DNA of 64,000 nt, from assembly GCF_023161965.1 (NCBI RefSeq), contig NZ_JALNTY010000001.1, positions 434,001 through 498,000 on the forward strand, read 5' to 3'. Below are positions 2,552-8,740 of this stretch, piece by piece. The DNA comes from Anaerosoma tenue. Lineage in GTDB: Bacteria > Actinomycetota > Coriobacteriia > Anaerosomatales > Anaerosomataceae. Every line of letters begins with the position of its first letter. The stretch's first letter is position 1. The translations under genes were made by a program, and so were the position numbers. Under the pieces are notes generated by a model. It made no database searches and was not told the origin of the DNA. It saw nothing but the letters and a program-made list of their open reading frames with translations.

Positions 2552-2845
2552 CTAAGCTGGCTCATCTGGGATCTGCGCGTCGTGCCACACGCCAACGACC
2601 CAGACCGCGTCCCCCTGAAGCCTGTAGAAGAAGCGGTACTTGCCGACGAGCACCTCACGGAACCCGAGGTCGGGAAACTCAGGGATCACTCGACCAGACT
2701 CCGGGAAGCGAATGAGGTTCCTGAGCGCCTCCATGGAACGATTGCGAAACGCGCGTGCGGCCATCGGACGCTCAGCGTGCATGTACTCGACGGCAGCAAG
2801 AAACTGACTGCGCGCCCGTGGCGTGAAGCCGATCCTGCGCGTCAC
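2552..2845 (-). CDS. RelE/ParE-family toxin
   Basis: A 97-residue protein starting at GTG 2845. The fold signature of the ParE/RelE superfamily is visible: an N-terminal FTPRARSQFLAAVEYM helix pair, a central region RFPESGRVIPEFPDLGFREV, then the strand pair KYRFFYRLQGDAVWVVGVWH ending in a conserved histidine. Toxins of this superfamily cleave ribosome-associated mRNA or poison gyrase; the sequence alone does not decide which. The GTG overlaps the antitoxin stop codon by 4 bp (GTGA), the usual antitoxin-first arrangement. Confidence 0.9.
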   Translation of the reverse strand: MTRRIGFTPRARSQFLAAVEYMHAERPMAARAFRNRSMEALRNLIRFPESGRVIPEFPDLGFREVLVGKYRFFYRLQGDAVWVVGVWHDAQIPDEPA

Positions 2846-3117
2846 GGCCGCTCCAGCAACGCATCCGCCTCAGCCATGATGGCGTCGATGTCGTAGCCGA
2901 TCCCAGCCTGGATCTCGACCTCTCCCTGCACGAGGATGCGCAGGATCTCGAGCTCACGCTGCGTCCGTTCGTAGGTACCAGCGCTCATGAGGACCGCTGA
3001 GGCACGACCATGCTGGGTTATGAAGACTGGATCGCCTGTGACCGACGCCTCCCGCACGATCGAAGACGCATCCTGTCGGAGTTCGCTGATAGGAACGATG
3101 TTGGGCATTGCACTCAT
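2842..3117 (-). CDS. Phd/YefM-family antitoxin
   Basis: A 91-residue antitoxin. The N-terminal part (NIVPISELRQDASSIVREA, then DPVFITQHGRASAVLMSAGTYE) is the typical Phd/YefM DNA-binding and dimerisation fold. The C-terminal part (about residues 55-91) is an acidic helix expected to wrap the toxin. The ATG at 3117 has an AGGAGG ribosome site 9 bases upstream; a second in-frame ATG three codons later is possible. The gene is coupled by overlap to the RelE/ParE toxin downstream and probably autorepresses through the inverted repeat at 3133-3152. Confidence 0.9.
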   Translation of the reverse strand: MSAMPNIVPISELRQDASSIVREASVTGDPVFITQHGRASAVLMSAGTYERTQRELEILRILVQGEVEIQAGIGYDIDAIMAEADALLERP

Positions 3118-3132
3118 TTTCGGTACCTCCTC

Positions 3133-3152
3133 TGGTAGTACCTACACTACCA
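3133..3152. promoter_or_regulatory. Candidate autoregulatory operator of the Phd/RelE pair
   Basis: TGGTAG (3133-3138) and CTACCA (3147-3152) form a 6-bp perfect inverted repeat around an 8-base centre, ending 15 bases upstream of the antitoxin ATG. Phd/YefM antitoxins repress their operons by binding short palindromes in this position. Assignment rests on position and symmetry. Confidence 0.45.
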
Positions 3153-3299
3153 CAGGAGACTCCAATTCAGTACATACAGCATACCGCGCCTCAGATGCGC
3201 AATCACCCATGAGTAGTACTTGCCGATAGTCGCCGCGAGCGCGCCGGGTCACCGGAAGGGCATGGACGATCGCAGTGCCTCCCGCGTGCCGCTGGTGGC

Positions 3300-3635
3300 T
3301 CAGTAGATGCACGCGTCGAGTATCGACAGCGCCTCGTCGACAACGGACGCAGGCGCATTCGTGATCAACTTCGCTCCCCGAGAACGGAAGTCGATGGACT
3401 TCACCTGTTCCACCATGACCACGCCGCTCACACGCAGGCCCTCGGGGATCGTGACATGGAAGGGATAGTGCCGTTGTGTGTTGGTGACCGGACAGACGAT
3501 GCACATGCCCGTGTGCCTGTTGAAGAGCTCGTTGCTGAGCACAAGAGCAGGCCGCCGAGCACGCTGCTCGTGGCCGGCCTGCGGGTCGAACGTGAGAGCG
3601 ACGAAGTCGCCCTTCCTGGGAATGTAGGCTGCCAT
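3300..3635 (-). CDS. mazF: MazF/PemK-family endoribonuclease toxin
   Basis: A 111-residue toxin of normal MazF length. Family landmarks are the N-terminal PRKGDFVALTFDPQAGHEQ, the RRPALVLS strand with the conserved arginine, the CPVTNTQRHYPFHV segment with the catalytic-site Thr, and the late VEQVKSIDFRSRGA strand. MazF enzymes cleave single-stranded mRNA at short sequences. The ATG directly abuts the TAG of the antitoxin gene upstream, so translation is likely coupled. Cleavage specificity cannot be read from the sequence. Confidence 0.93.
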   Translation of the reverse strand: MAAYIPRKGDFVALTFDPQAGHEQRARRPALVLSNELFNRHTGMCIVCPVTNTQRHYPFHVTIPEGLRVSGVVMVEQVKSIDFRSRGAKLITNAPASVVDEALSILDACIY

Positions 3636-3884
3636 CTACCAGACCTCACGCCCTGCCGGAGGGCCCCAATCGAACTCACCGGGCTTGTAGTCGGCCGGAA
3701 TCTCCCGAACCAGCTCTTCCAGATCGAGCCGGCCCCTGACGCGGCGGACAGGCGTGACGACGAGACTCCCGTCACGCTCGGAGACGTCAACGGTATCCCC
3801 TACCTCGATATCGACATCAGCAAGCAGGTCCTTGCTCAACCGCAGACCCTGGCTGTTGCCCCACTTCTGGATCTTCGTGATCAT
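3636..3884 (-). CDS. mazE: MazE/AbrB-type antitoxin
   Basis: An 82-residue antitoxin. The N-terminal swapped-hairpin DNA-binding domain is clear (KIQKWGNSQGLRLSKDLL, then VGDTVDVSERDGSLVVTPV). It is followed by a linker and a toxin-binding tail ending GEFDWGPPAGREVW. The ATG at 3884 is chosen because an AGGGGG ribosome site lies 8 bases upstream; an in-frame GTG at 3893 would sit directly on that site. Its stop abuts the mazF start. A promoter-like pair lies upstream at 3911-3940. Confidence 0.92.
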   Translation of the reverse strand: MITKIQKWGNSQGLRLSKDLLADVDIEVGDTVDVSERDGSLVVTPVRRVRGRLDLEELVREIPADYKPGEFDWGPPAGREVW

Positions 3885-3910
3885 CACAAGCACCCCCTAT
3901 GGCTAGCCGA

Positions 3911-3986: not shown

Positions 3987-4298
3987 CTACCGTCCGCCAC
4001 CAACGCCATCACGCTTCGGTGCCGCAGAACCGCTGCCGAGACCGCCGACCGCAACCAGCACAACGGGGATGGTGCCGACGCCAAGGAGCAGGGCCGACCA
4101 CAGCGGCGCGCCAACGAGCCAGAGGAAGAGCGCTACCGAGCAGGCAACACATCCGCCCGCGACCCACACCGCCCGGCGGAGCGATAGCCGCAAACGCATC
4201 GCAACCACCGTCACGATGGCGATGACAGCGACGATCCCGGCCAGGTATGCCGCAGTGAACCACGCCCAGCCCTCAACCGCGATACGCGGTTCCCACAT
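3987..4298 (-). CDS. Small three-helix membrane protein, unknown
   Basis: A 103-residue protein starting MWEPRIAVEGWAW. The ATG at 4298 is chosen for an AGGAGGG ribosome site 6 bases upstream, which decides against the upstream ATG at 4316. Three hydrophobic segments are visible at about residues 10-33, 45-63 and 65-85, with a Gly/Ser-rich basic tail. No family is recognised. It lies between the mazEF pair and another small membrane protein inside the accessory island. An orphan immunity protein of a polymorphic toxin is one possibility; the sequence does not settle it. Confidence 0.6.
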   Translation of the reverse strand: MWEPRIAVEGWAWFTAAYLAGIVAVIAIVTVVAMRLRLSLRRAVWVAGGCVACSVALFLWLVGAPLWSALLLGVGTIPVVLVAVGGLGSGSAAPKRDGVGGGR

Positions 4299-4400
4299 CC
4301 CGGACCCTCCTATCATCGAGCACCGGTACCTCGACCCACTCCCGAACGCCTGTGTGACGTTCTAGTGTCGGAATGTCCACGAGACCGGGCTGACTTCATA

Positions 4401-4748
4401 TCATCTCCCAGCGCGGCGCTTGACCCTCCTCACCGTCCGCCAGTAGAAGAACCACGCAGTCCACACGCCGCCCAGGACGGATGCGATCAACACAGTAGCT
4501 AGCGCCAACCCATGCTGTTGCGACCACCCGAGCTCACAGGCAGACTGCGCAACCACGAGAGCGAAGAAGGCGCCCAGGACAAGGGACAAGCCGATTCCAG
4601 ATCCGAGACTCCATCTGCGTATTGCCCTGATTGTATCCGTTACCTCAGCATGCTCTGCGATACCGAGTACACGCTTGTAGCCAAGAATGCCCGTTACTGC
4701 CAGGAGCAGACCACCGAGGACTGCCACGGCTTGAGTCAGAATCCACAT
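4401..4748 (-). CDS. Small three-helix membrane protein, possible immunity protein
   Basis: A 115-residue protein starting MWILTQAVAVLGGLL at ATG 4748, with an AAGGAG site 6 bases upstream. Hydrophobic helices lie at about residues 2-22, 50-73 and 82-102, and a strongly basic tail (RTVRRVKRRAGR) is probably cytoplasmic. No family is recognised. A broken reading frame ends 10 bases upstream (stop at 4759). That mirrors the toxin-then-immunity order seen on the other side of the IS element, so an immunity role is a reasonable guess but unproven. Confidence 0.6.
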   Translation of the reverse strand: MWILTQAVAVLGGLLLAVTGILGYKRVLGIAEHAEVTDTIRAIRRWSLGSGIGLSLVLGAFFALVVAQSACELGWSQQHGLALATVLIASVLGGVWTAWFFYWRTVRRVKRRAGR

Positions 4749-4758
4749 GCAAGACTCC

Positions 4759-4924
4759 TTAGTCTCCCGGTAAGAGCTGGTGCGCCTCACGTGGTTGTGC
4801 CCAGGGAATCAGCTCGTATCCACCTGCGTAGGCCACGGTTGACACAGTACTGAGAGCTGGCGCGGCAGCGAGTGCTGTGAAGATCACATTCCCTAGGGTC
4901 GTTTCCCCCTCAGTCCACTGCGGG
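4759..4924 (-). pseudogene. Remnant of a coding frame cut by the IS element
   Basis: Reading away from the IS left end on the minus strand, an open frame continues for about 54 codons to a stop at 4759. It includes the Ala-rich stretch TLGNVIFTALAAAPALS. It has no start of its own outside the IS, and the gene for a small membrane protein begins 10 bases after the stop. It may be the 3' end of a second toxin gene. The family is not recognisable and it could also be chance coding. Confidence 0.3.
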
Positions 4925-4950
4925 TGTACCGCGTCAAGATTCTTGGACAC
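4925..4950 (+). repeat. IS3 left terminal inverted repeat
   Basis: This end contains GCGTCAAG followed by TTCTTGGACAC. It matches the reverse complement of the right end with one single-base indel and a few mismatches in the outer bases. It begins with TGT, as expected for IS3-family tips. Confidence 0.75.
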
Positions 4951-5836
4951 TTCGGGCCCGAAATAGGTGTGATGCCGCGTGCACTTCGATGGGCCTGAGG
5001 TTCCCGATCGTCTCGTGTGGGCGAACGTCGTTGTACAGCTCGAGGAAGATCGCGACCTCGTCCATGAGCTCGGCCACATCGTCGATCTCGAGCCGGTAGA
5101 GGTGCTCGTACTTGAGCGTGCGGTTGAACCGCTCGACCACGCCGTTCTGGCCCGGGGAGTAATGGCGCGTGCGGATATGCTGCAGCCAAGGACGGGCGGC
5201 CATGAAGCGCATGAAGGCCGTGGACTTGAACGCGCTGCCGTTGTCCGTCACCACCTTGAGAGGTGTGATCTCCCCCGTGTCAGGATCGGTGCACGCCTCA
5301 GCGAGGCTCAGCCCGGCGATGAGCTCGGCTTCTGCGATGGCAGCCTCCAGCGCCGCGATCGCATCGCGCTGCGTCGCCGTGCCGGTCACCGGCGCCGCGA
5401 GCGCGTACTTGCTCACGTAGTCGACGACCGGGCAGATCCGCCACGTGCCTCCCTGCCGGGTCTCGAACTCGGTGAAGTCCATCTGCCAGACCTGGTTCGG
5501 CCGCGTCGGGGCCTCCATGAACGCCGCCTTGCGCGCGGTCGCGAGCTCACGCCGCTCTTTGAGGTGCCGTTCGGGGAGCACAAGGTCGAGCCGCCTCATC
5601 GCACGCAGTACACTCGATGCGGACACATCGACCCCGTCGGCGCGCATCATCGCGCAGATCTTCCGGTGGCCCCATGCTGACCACTTGTGCGCATACTCGC
5701 CTGCGACCGCCTCGACCTCGTCGACGACCGGCGCAGGCCAGCGTCTCGCCGGCGTGCCCGACAGGTCACACGCCCGCCAGTAGTACCACGTCGAGTGCGG
5801 GATCCCGAGGCGGACGAGCAGCCTCGAGACCGGCAC
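4934..5836 (-). CDS. IS3-family transposase OrfB (integrase core)
   Basis: A 300-residue DDE transposase. An HTH_21-like region (residues about 40-95) precedes the rve integrase core, which starts WQMDFTEFE with the first catalytic Asp. The second Asp lies in KVVTDNGSAF and the Glu in GQNGVVERFNRTLKYE. The frame is open upstream of the ATG as far as the orfA overlap, so the active product is probably an OrfAB fusion made by -1 frameshifting. The C-terminus (after RPHETIGNLRPIEV) runs into the terminal repeat. It appears intact. Confidence 0.92.
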   Translation of the reverse strand: MPVSRLLVRLGIPHSTWYYWRACDLSGTPARRWPAPVVDEVEAVAGEYAHKWSAWGHRKICAMMRADGVDVSASSVLRAMRRLDLVLPERHLKERRELATARKAAFMEAPTRPNQVWQMDFTEFETRQGGTWRICPVVDYVSKYALAAPVTGTATQRDAIAALEAAIAEAELIAGLSLAEACTDPDTGEITPLKVVTDNGSAFKSTAFMRFMAARPWLQHIRTRHYSPGQNGVVERFNRTLKYEHLYRLEIDDVAELMDEVAIFLELYNDVRPHETIGNLRPIEVHAASHLFRARSVQES

Positions 5837-5859
5837 TCCGGCCTCCGCGCGGATGGCCT

Positions 5860-6177
5860 CTATCGCTTCGTACGGGGGTAGAGAGCCCCCCCTTTACGCC
5901 ACACGCGGAGCTCCACGTAGGCCTCACCGAGGGCGGTGGTGAGCTCGTCGACCTGCATCTCGAGCTCCTCCTCGCGTTTGGAGGAGGGCGGCCGGGCGTT
6001 CTCTCCGCGGGTGAGCGCCTCGATGCCTCCTTGCAGAAACTGCTTCTGCCACTTGGCGATCGTCGTCTGGCTCATCTGCAGGCGTCTGGCGATGTCGGAC
6101 TGGGTGGTCTCTCCGCGGAGCACCGACAGCACGATTTGCATCTTGTCCTCAGGGCTGTAGATCGGCTTCCGTCCCAC
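5860..6177 (-). CDS. IS3-family transposase OrfA (helix-turn-helix)
   Basis: A 105-residue OrfA. The N-terminal helix-turn-helix (YSPEDKMQIVLSVLRGETTQ, then ARRLQMSQTTIAKWQKQFLQ) binds the IS ends. A C-terminal leucine-zipper-like coiled coil (about residues 65-95: REEELEMQVDELTTALGEAY) mediates multimerisation. The frame terminates just after an A3G7 run that lies in the overlap with the orfB frame. Length and layout are normal for the family. Confidence 0.9.
   Translation of the reverse strand: MGRKPIYSPEDKMQIVLSVLRGETTQSDIARRLQMSQTTIAKWQKQFLQGGIEALTRGENARPPSSKREEELEMQVDELTTALGEAYVELRVWRKGGALYPRTKR
5886..5895 (-). other. Candidate -1 programmed frameshift site (A3G7)
   Basis: On the coding strand AAAGGGGGGG falls at codons 95-97 of OrfA (read AAA GGG GGG). 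The orfB frame is -1 relative to orfA and is open from just after this run. IS3 elements usually make OrfAB by -1 slippage on such runs. No downstream pseudoknot was verified. Confidence 0.5.
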
Positions 6178-6218
6178 TATTGGCTCCTCTCAGGCACCGC
6201 TTCAGGTATGAATAATCG

Positions 6219-6245
6219 GTGTCCAAGAAAGCTTGACGCAAGACA
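6219..6245 (-). repeat. IS3 right terminal inverted repeat
   Basis: Read on the minus strand this end begins TGTCTTGCGTCAAG and continues to CTTGGACAC. It mirrors the left end at 4925-4950 with one indel and a few mismatches. Confidence 0.75.
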
Positions 6246-7185
6246 GGTGACCTACGCGTATCACACCGACGCGCTCGGGAGCGTGGTCGCGATCACCTCG
6301 CCTTCAGGCGCCGTCGTCGCCACCTACGCCTACGACCCCTACGGGGGCGTGACGCAGGTGGGCGGGAGCGACGCGGCGCTCGCCGAGCGCAACCCCCTGC
6401 GCTACCGCGCCTACTACCACGACACCACCACTGGGCACTACTACCTGCCCGCCCGCTACTACGACCCGGACACCATGCGCTTCTTATCACCCGACCCGGC
6501 TCCCCCGAGCGCCGGAGACCCGCTTACGCTCAACCGCTACGCGTGCTGCGTGGGGGACCCGGTGGATATGAGCGACCCGAGCGGGGCGGTGATCGATGTG
6601 GATGGGGATGGCACGCTGGACGTAGAGGACACGTGGAGCCAAAGCTACCTGCGTACATCTCCGTCAGCGAGCAGGAGAAACCAGCATATCAAGGCAGCAC
6701 GTCGAGCCGGGATGGTCAGTGCTGTCGGCGACTCTAGTGCTCGCAGGATGAGTGCGCGAGGTGTCTCCCAGATGGCGATTTGGGAGTATCGCGCGGCGAT
6801 TGCGAACACACCTGCCGATCATGTATGGCGAGACGAGACCATGTTCGTCCATACGCGAGCCAACATAGGTGTGTGGTCGTTCGGATGGACCGTCCGGGAG
6901 ACTGCGCGCAACTGGATGACATACACCTCGGCTGACTCCTTGTCTTTCACGTATGATCCGATATCTTGGCCTGATCTTGGCGTCACACAGTCCAGATCCA
7001 CACGACCCCCGACGCTCGGCGTATCAGTTGAGGGTCCCAGCGCGACTCTTCTCTCCGGGTGGCCCGCTCCCGAAGGCGGGAGTCTGGGAGGTACACCGAG
7101 CACATCTCTCTGCGGTGTGACCTACTGCATGTACGCCAACACGTCTCCACTCTATGGTGCAGATGGGGTGCCCAGCAACCGATGA
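6246..7185 (+). pseudogene. 5'-truncated Rhs/YD-repeat polymorphic toxin (core end plus C-terminal toxin)
   Basis: The frame enters from the IS end and reads the closing Rhs-repeat core: YHTDALGSVVAIT, YAYDPYGGV and the hallmark ARYYDPDTMRFLSPDP, followed by DPVDMSDPSG. In Rhs proteins this motif marks the junction after which a variable C-terminal toxin begins. Here about 200 further residues follow with no recognisable family. The large N-terminal shell and repeats are missing, removed or separated by the IS3 element. An in-frame ATG at 6208 inside the IS end could still permit a 325-residue product, but with no good ribosome site. The stop overlaps the next gene by 4 bp (ATGA). Confidence 0.8.
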
Positions 7186-7412
7186 ATCTACCGCTACAGA
7201 TCACTCTGATAGCCATCCTGGCATGGCTTCTGGCCCCACTTGAAGCATGGGTGCTGTTGAACTCTGTGGTCTCTCTCCTCATAGGCCAACAATCCGACGA
7301 TCCTGAAGAGCGATCACGGCGCCTGAAGGCAATGACTCTCACCCTAAGGCGCACCGCGGTTCTTGCCTGGATCGGGTTCCTTGTTCTCTGGTTGCTGAGC
7401 CCAAGGCAGTAG
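7182..7412 (+). CDS. Two-helix membrane protein, likely immunity protein of the Rhs toxin
   Basis: A 76-residue protein starting MNLPLQITLIAILAWLL. Hydrophobic segments lie at about residues 5-35 and 52-72, with a charged loop (DDPEERSRRLK) between them. Its ATG overlaps the Rhs stop codon (ATGA). Polymorphic toxins are routinely followed by a small cognate immunity gene in this coupled arrangement. A membrane-embedded immunity protein would fit a toxin that acts at the membrane. No named immunity family is recognised, so the role rests on position. Confidence 0.6.
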   Translation: MNLPLQITLIAILAWLLAPLEAWVLLNSVVSLLIGQQSDDPEERSRRLKAMTLTLRRTAVLAWIGFLVLWLLSPRQ

Positions 7413-7570
7413 ACGAGAATGCCTGACTCTGCGATCCCGCTCTTTGCGCTTCCGCAAAGCTGGCCTTGCACATTGTCGCTTGCGCCTCCGCTCGGGGTGC
7501 GACGACTTCGTGCTGCCACCCAATGGCCTCGCAGTGCTCACGACCCGCGGACCCACCCAAGCAAACTCCC

Positions 7571-8740
7571 CTACCGCTTCGCCACCCGCCGGAAGACCTC
7601 GGTGTACCGCGGGACAAGCCGCTCGAACGTGTACGGCTCGGCGATCGCCCTGGCCGTGCCGGGAGCGGGGCGCTCGGCGATCAGGCTCCGCAACCTGGCC
7701 ACAAGCTGCTCCTGCGTCCCGTACCGCATGTCCGCCGGATAGAGCTCCGGATACGCCAGCCGGTCCGGTACGAGCGGTGCACACCCGGCATAGGCCGCCT
7801 CGAGCATCGCCAGGCCAAAGAACTCGTTGCGCGCAGTGGAGACGGCGATGTCTGCGCTGGCGAGCAAGCGCGCGTACTCGGCACGCGATCCGGGCTCCCC
7901 CACGTGCACCAGGCGATCACCGAGCGATGAGGCCGCCTCCACCACGAGCGCCTCGGTCTCCCGGAACGACTGGCCCGCGATCGCCACCTCGAACTCCAGA
8001 CCCTCGGCCGCAAGCGCACCCACCGCCGCGAAGAACGCCTCCGGGTCCTTGTCGTGCTCCCAGCGGTGCGGCCACACGATGCGCGGACGCGGGCCTCGGG
8101 TGACTGGCGCACCATCGAACGGCGCCGGGTCGAACGGCGGCGGCACCACCTCCGAGCGCGCGGCGATGCGCTCGGCCACGCCCTGCGGCCGGTGGTCGGG
8201 GAACTCGCGCAGGAAGCCGGGGATCTCGGCGAGGAAACCGTCGAGGTTGTAGCGGGTGTTGAAGAGGCAGCGTTCAGCGGTAAGAGCGCTCGTGATGTTG
8301 GTGAGCGCGAACTGGTAGTCCCACTCGGCGGTGTGGCGGTTGGGGTACAGCAGTTGGTTCTCGTGGAAGTACACAATGCGCGGCACATCCGCCACCGCCT
8401 CGCCCGCGAGCGCCACGAACTCCGCCAGGTTCACGAAGGTGGATGCGTAGATGACGTCCCAGGCGCGATCGGGATGCAGGCGCCCTGCCTCTCCGCCCGG
8501 GTGCGCCTCGCGCCACGCTGCAGCGAGCGCGCGGGCTTCCTCGGCCATGGTGATCGCCGAGCCTCGCATGCGCCACTTCCACTTCCGTGGCGGCAGGGTG
8601 AGTACATCGAACGCGAAGCCGAGGGGCTCCATGCGCCCGATCAGGCCGTCGAGCACTGCGCGATGCGAGCCGCCGTAGTAGGGCTCGAGCGCCAGCACGC
8701 GGATGGGGGCGTCTGTGGAGCGCGCTGCGGGGTCGCTCAT
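7571..8740 (-). CDS. Glycosyltransferase, tRNA-queuosine alpha-mannosyltransferase-like (DUF3524)
   Basis: A 389-residue protein. The N-terminus carries the DUF3524 signature ALEPYYGGSHRAVLDGL followed by LTLPPRKWKWRMRGSA, found in the vertebrate GTDC1/QTMAN enzyme that mannosylates queuosine in tRNA-Asp. A central YFHENQLLYP motif is also conserved. The C-terminal half is a GT4-type Rossmann domain with the donor-binding region TARNEFFGLAMLEAAYAGC. The ATG overlaps the thiI stop by 4 bp, tying it to another tRNA-modifying enzyme. Family membership is solid; the bacterial substrate is inferred. A plain sugar transferase is the alternative. Confidence 0.8.
   Translation of the reverse strand: MSDPAARSTDAPIRVLALEPYYGGSHRAVLDGLIGRMEPLGFAFDVLTLPPRKWKWRMRGSAITMAEEARALAAAWREAHPGGEAGRLHPDRAWDVIYASTFVNLAEFVALAGEAVADVPRIVYFHENQLLYPNRHTAEWDYQFALTNITSALTAERCLFNTRYNLDGFLAEIPGFLREFPDHRPQGVAERIAARSEVVPPPFDPAPFDGAPVTRGPRPRIVWPHRWEHDKDPEAFFAAVGALAAEGLEFEVAIAGQSFRETEALVVEAASSLGDRLVHVGEPGSRAEYARLLASADIAVSTARNEFFGLAMLEAAYAGCAPLVPDRLAYPELYPADMRYGTQEQLVARLRSLIAERPAPGTARAIAEPYTFERLVPRYTEVFRRVAKR

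Follow-up and report, generated by a model that had tools for sequence, protein, structure and literature searches.

The window, as we call the 64,000-nucleotide stretch of the Anaerosoma tenue genome analysed here (G000:C1:434001-498000), carries what is probably a displaced Rhs C-terminal toxin-immunity cassette, with a toxin that most likely acts on membranes and a present-day role as orphan immunity gene and donor cassette. That the locus is a toxin-immunity cassette can be stated with high confidence, and a membrane as the target of its toxin is, once this identity is accepted, favoured by the evidence. The system type is already well known, and it is the C-terminal domain of about 140 residues that, judged from its sequence, would represent a new candidate toxin-domain family.

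The Rhs core model TIGR03696 (Rhs_assc_core, NCBIfam; a search with PF03527 gave no matches anywhere, positive controls included) matched residues 31-115 of the reading frame at 6241-7182 with an E-value of 1.4e-20. This frame is open to 7185, with its stop codon at 7183-7185, and the core match ends with ...ARYYDPDTMRFLSPDP...DPSG, after which a tail of 199 residues follows (6586-7182). Both the Rhs core end and the unrecognised tail of about 200 residues, as described in a first-pass annotation of this DNA, could thus be confirmed. The core remnant up to the DPSG motif covers 6246-6585 (plus strand); homology to Rhs sequences of other genomes begins at approximately 6244, at the edge of an IS, and an intact Rhs shell is absent at the locus. 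The genome carries only one Rhs core, namely the remnant studied here. Because of the missing shell, the locus was filed as a severed cassette and not as a complete Rhs toxin. An ATG at 6208, previously suggested to still give a product, is indeed in frame with the remnant and would lead to a protein of 325 aa; a promoter-like site near this ATG was looked for and none was seen. The GC content at the three codon positions was approximately 0.56/0.60/0.63 in the tail compared to 0.64/0.55/0.90 in the core. Such a drop in GC3 (0.63 versus 0.90) is usual in the order, where the median over 104 Rhs tails was 0.69 compared to 0.87 for the cores, and is expected for exchanged cassettes. No tRNA genes were found in the window.

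About 60 residues at the N-terminus of the tail (AVIDVDGDGTLDVEDTWSQSYLRTSPS...) align with Rhs tails of the genomes G009 (55% identity over the aligned residues), G040 (63%) and G020 (36%), and more weakly with tails of G012, G018 and G022. Beyond this segment the matched tails turn unrelated, as seen for the hydrophobic helical C-terminal parts in G009 and G040. A common segment ahead of unrelated C-terminal parts indicates a linker (6586-6765, plus strand), which leaves the last approximately 140 residues as the variable part, swapped behind a common boundary in G009, G040, G020 and others. One linker ahead of differing C-terminal domains is a mark of polymorphic toxins. The original assignment of the whole tail as toxin therefore has to be narrowed to these last residues, which remained unmatched, and it is only for the first 60 or so that the tail proved to be common Rhs sequence. 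The linker contains a Ca-binding-like loop (DVDGDGTLDVED) with a sub-threshold match to EF-hand_5 (Pfam, E 0.07), apart from which the 199-residue tail gave no match in Pfam, NCBIfam, PADLOC and PHROGs.

The candidate toxin domain itself comprises approximately 139 residues (6766-7185 including the stop, plus strand). No hydrophobic helix is predicted in the tail, the highest KD19 being 0.57, and neither an enzyme family nor a conserved catalytic motif was found in it with Pfam, NCBIfam and PDB sequences. It had been proposed to search for the same toxin tail in related genomes, and 69 genomes of the order yielded linker matches but no homologue of the C-terminal domain; one further weak match to the tail, in G014, has an internal stop. 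The same G014 match was the best (E 0.001) among 398 genomes of the class, where only noise was obtained, and 396 genomes of the phylum gave linker matches only. No homologue of the domain was detected in a GTDB peptide scan, IMG/VR and PDB sequences, nor in plasmids and phages, where a single match with E 0.4 was located in a relaxase. An AlphaFold model of the window tail reached a pLDDT of 34 and was discarded as unusable for a fold search.

The stop codon of the tail overlaps with the start codon of a second gene (7182-7412, plus strand) in an ATGA at 7182-7185, with the ATG of the partner at 7182. The encoded protein of 76 aa has two hydrophobic segments, with hydropathy peaks of 2.2 (residues 3-17) and 2.36 (residues 58-72) in a 15-residue window, the second peak falling slightly below the usual cut-off of 1.6 in a 19-residue window. 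Overlap and two-helix character are hence as initially annotated. No homologues of this protein were found in the genome sets searched, it showed no Pfam family at E<=1, and the profiles of Imm17 and Imm-CdiI do not match. With its location directly 3' of the tail the small gene occupies the immunity position, and this position alone makes it a candidate immunity gene.

Rhs cores were detected in 41 of the 69 genomes of the order, approximately 125 in total, many of them on short ORFs. The next ORFs behind 94 distinct complete Rhs tails were compared with those behind 137 non-Rhs genes of the same loci, with helix counting by hydropathy that is crude and an ORF rule that is mechanical, both applied identically to the two sets. 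At least one predicted membrane helix was present in 79/94 ORFs after Rhs tails, compared to 29/137 of the controls (Fisher p 5e-22), and at least two helices in 47/94 and 11/137 respectively (Fisher p 7e-13). With a small membrane gene tightly coupled to the tail at the place of an immunity gene, as noted before, the locus thus follows the rule in the order. Partners of up to 85 aa behave alike: six out of seven follow tails that, like the window tail, have no hydrophobic helix, and the combination of such a tail with a small membrane partner (50-79 aa) is a recurring pattern. Therefore, from the Rhs core, the unmatched tail and the enrichment of membrane partners, the identification of the locus as a toxin-immunity cassette is well supported. 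The proportion of 84% of genes directly 3' of Rhs tails with a predicted membrane helix is in itself an unusually strong bias for the order. A separate observation concerns L046 (G008:C1:765614-785481), where about a dozen Rhs_assc_core matches lie within 16 kb behind an Rhs ORF of 2342 aa and form a large orphan cassette array.

The cassette is part of a block (4390-7564) that comprises one IS and the remnants of two Rhs cassettes and that two congeners lack at this site. In G002, the matches to window positions 4000-4389 and 7565-7714 (90% identity) are approximately 24 bp apart, and in G003 the block is likewise absent, so that the 3.2 kb are most simply explained as an insertion in this genome. 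The IS is an IS3-like element (approximately 4925-6245, minus strand) with terminal inverted repeats and the ends TGTaccGCGTCAAG and TGTcttGCGTCAAG, present as a single copy in the genome. It encodes IS3-like OrfB (4934-5836, minus strand) and OrfA (5860-6177, minus strand), with Pfam matches to rve, rve_3, HTH_28 and HTH_Tnp_1. At its other edge, and starting exactly there, are the last 54 residues and the stop of a second Rhs tail (4759-4923, minus strand), which match the C-terminus of the tail at G026:C9 (E 6e-5 with blastp and 7.6e-5 with phmmer, among 106 tails). Ten bp past this fragment, a hydrophobic membrane protein of 115 aa (4401-4748, minus strand) is the candidate immunity gene of the second cassette. 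No clear family was found for it, and a relationship to the partner at G026:C9 was rejected as not significant (1376/2000 block shuffles reach the score). Each Rhs remnant has its cut edge at the IS and reads outwards from it. The ends of the IS show no identical pair of 3-bp target duplications (flanks GGG and GGT), and these flanks speak more for a rearrangement across the IS than for its plain insertion into a single gene. The earlier proposal, in which the loss of the Rhs shell is ascribed to the IS3 element, gives an incomplete account, as two opposed cassette ends flank the IS, a matching 3-base duplication is missing and, compared with two congeners, all of the 3.2 kb are inserted. Close to this island, two toxin-antitoxin-like pairs (MazE/MazF-like and RelB/RelE-like) were seen by eye in the ORF list, at 3142-3893 and 2552-3117 (both minus strand).

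For one family of Rhs tails in the order a structural model could be obtained. This alignment, A1, comprises four tails, one each from G009 (L048, G009:C6:228531-228974, minus strand) and G022 (L067, G022:C3:140881-141324, plus strand) and two from G020 (L065, G020:C26:2623-2976, and L066, G020:C46:2832-3209, both minus strand). Membrane partners follow three of them at +6, -4 and +7 bp and are 71, 72 and 79 aa long, and the partner of the fourth (G020:C46) is a membrane protein of 170 aa. The G022 tail belongs to a full-length Rhs ORF of 2452 aa. Between G009 and G022, which represent separate genera, the tails share 59% identity and the partner of 71-72 aa is conserved along with them; that these two partners are related was confirmed by 0/1000 block shuffles reaching their score. 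A related barrel-type tail (L040, G005:C59:50009-50726, minus strand) is split over two short reading frames, which points to either a damaged copy or a mistake in the assembly. AlphaFold2 analysis of A1 led to a model with eight strands, a pLDDT of 71 and a pTM of 0.65, and its top matches among solved structures were VapD, VapG and VapB of Rhodococcus equi (Z 9.5 to 8.5 over approximately 100 residues), after which the next match falls to Z 5.0. Foldseek alone gave E 0.07 and a probability of 0.92. As the alignment contains four sequences and these Z values are little above the 7-8 that are typical best values for unmatched models, we regard the Vap-like barrel as a lead. PF05526 (R_equi_Vir), the Vap model of Pfam, did not exceed its threshold anywhere in the order and did not match the A1 tails, so that only the predicted fold speaks for the Vap likeness. 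VapA permeabilises liposomes (PMC10100859), and the VapD barrel has a glycine-rich 'bald' face to which detergent binds (PMC4118825).

The window tail resembles the A1 tails in the kind of linker, the nearly equal length and the non-hydrophobic character, and three out of four A1 tails also have partners of 71-79 aa at -4 to +7 bp, but the C-terminal domains show no significant sequence similarity. Comparison of the window tail with A1 by hhalign led to E 0.15, pairwise tests against the A1 tails were negative, and about 500 of 4718 scored shuffles reach the A1-model score of its C-terminal part; homology to A1 is thus unproven. It is a doubtful idea that the window tail strongly diverged within a class of Rhs toxins in which a small Vap-like beta-barrel would make membranes permeable and a two-helix membrane protein would confer immunity. 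If true, it would link the Vap barrel of the R. equi virulence proteins to a weapon between bacteria. Should the A1 barrel prove toxic to bacteria, harmless laboratory systems could be used to study how the Vap fold works and where it came from.

According to the reading that we prefer, the cassette would have been acquired horizontally and later severed from its Rhs shell. The full Rhs protein would have delivered the linker and the domain of approximately 140 residues into a neighbouring cell, and the toxin most likely acts in or at the cytoplasmic membrane, with the 76-residue protein in the cytoplasmic membrane of the producer predicted to block it. As a second Rhs core is absent from the genome, no vehicle that could deliver the toxin is visible, and of the two genes it is likely the immunity gene that is still useful. 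The missing shell suggests that immunity may even be the only product of current use; probably the pair now serves for orphan immunity and, through recombination via the Rhs core, as a cassette donor. Counted against a cassette were the missing homologues of both genes, the weak codon-position bias of the tail and the low pLDDT of its model. A membrane target does not follow from a membrane partner, since two-helix immunity proteins may instead block toxin uptake, as suggested by Zhang et al. (PMC3482391) for immunity proteins with two TM regions. The toxin might hence be a soluble cytoplasmic enzyme and the two-helix protein might immunise at the membrane, for example by an import block, in agreement with a tail devoid of hydrophobic helices. 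We consider this unlikely, as neither an enzyme family nor a catalytic motif could be recognised and the one family of tails with small partners for which a model was obtained has a beta-barrel resembling the membrane-binding Vap proteins.

Similarly improbable is a decaying remnant, with both genes non-functional and the ORFs intact merely through recent insertion. The rearrangement around the IS, which cost the shell, the flat codon-position GC of the tail, the missing promoter-like site and the visibly broken related tail in G005 with its two short frames may be explained in this way, but both frames are intact, the coupled ATGA overlap is retained and a low GC3 is usual for Rhs tails of the order. 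The dissimilarity of the tail to known toxins would also be compatible with a non-toxic, structural or adhesive Rhs ending next to an unrelated small gene; given the variability of the cassettes, the linker common to switched C-terminal domains and the strong enrichment of membrane partners directly 3' of Rhs tails, this is very improbable. With a displaced toxin-immunity cassette as the preferred explanation, an unclassified candidate toxin domain and a candidate immunity protein are added to the Rhs repertoire, and the survey has shown that the Rhs cassettes of one bacterial order are mostly paired with membrane-protein partners and that one tail family models as a Vap-like barrel.

Compared to known systems, the locus shares with Rhs polymorphic toxin cassettes the Rhs core end, the DPxG boundary, the variable C-terminal domain and the adjoining small gene in immunity position, and numerous short cassette ORFs of the same layout occur in the order, for example in G008:C1 at 768-785 kb. 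It differs from them in a toxin domain and an immunity protein outside the described families, in the missing shell and in the two cassette remnants back to back around an IS. Imm-CdiI and Imm17 are two-helix immunity families in the 2012 survey of Zhang et al. (PMC3482391) and, like the 76-aa protein, are small, have two hydrophobic helices and are encoded beside a toxin gene, but the latter matches neither profile and has no WxW motif between its helices. The window tail shows no sequence similarity to solved chains (PDB), and its maximum KD19 of 0.57 sets it apart from Tse5-CT of Pseudomonas aeruginosa, which has predicted membrane-inserting helices. Nevertheless, Tse5/Tsi5 is the closest experimentally studied analogue, as an Rhs C-terminal domain that depolarises membranes is combined there with a small immunity protein, Tsi5, with two predicted transmembrane regions (PMC9637101).
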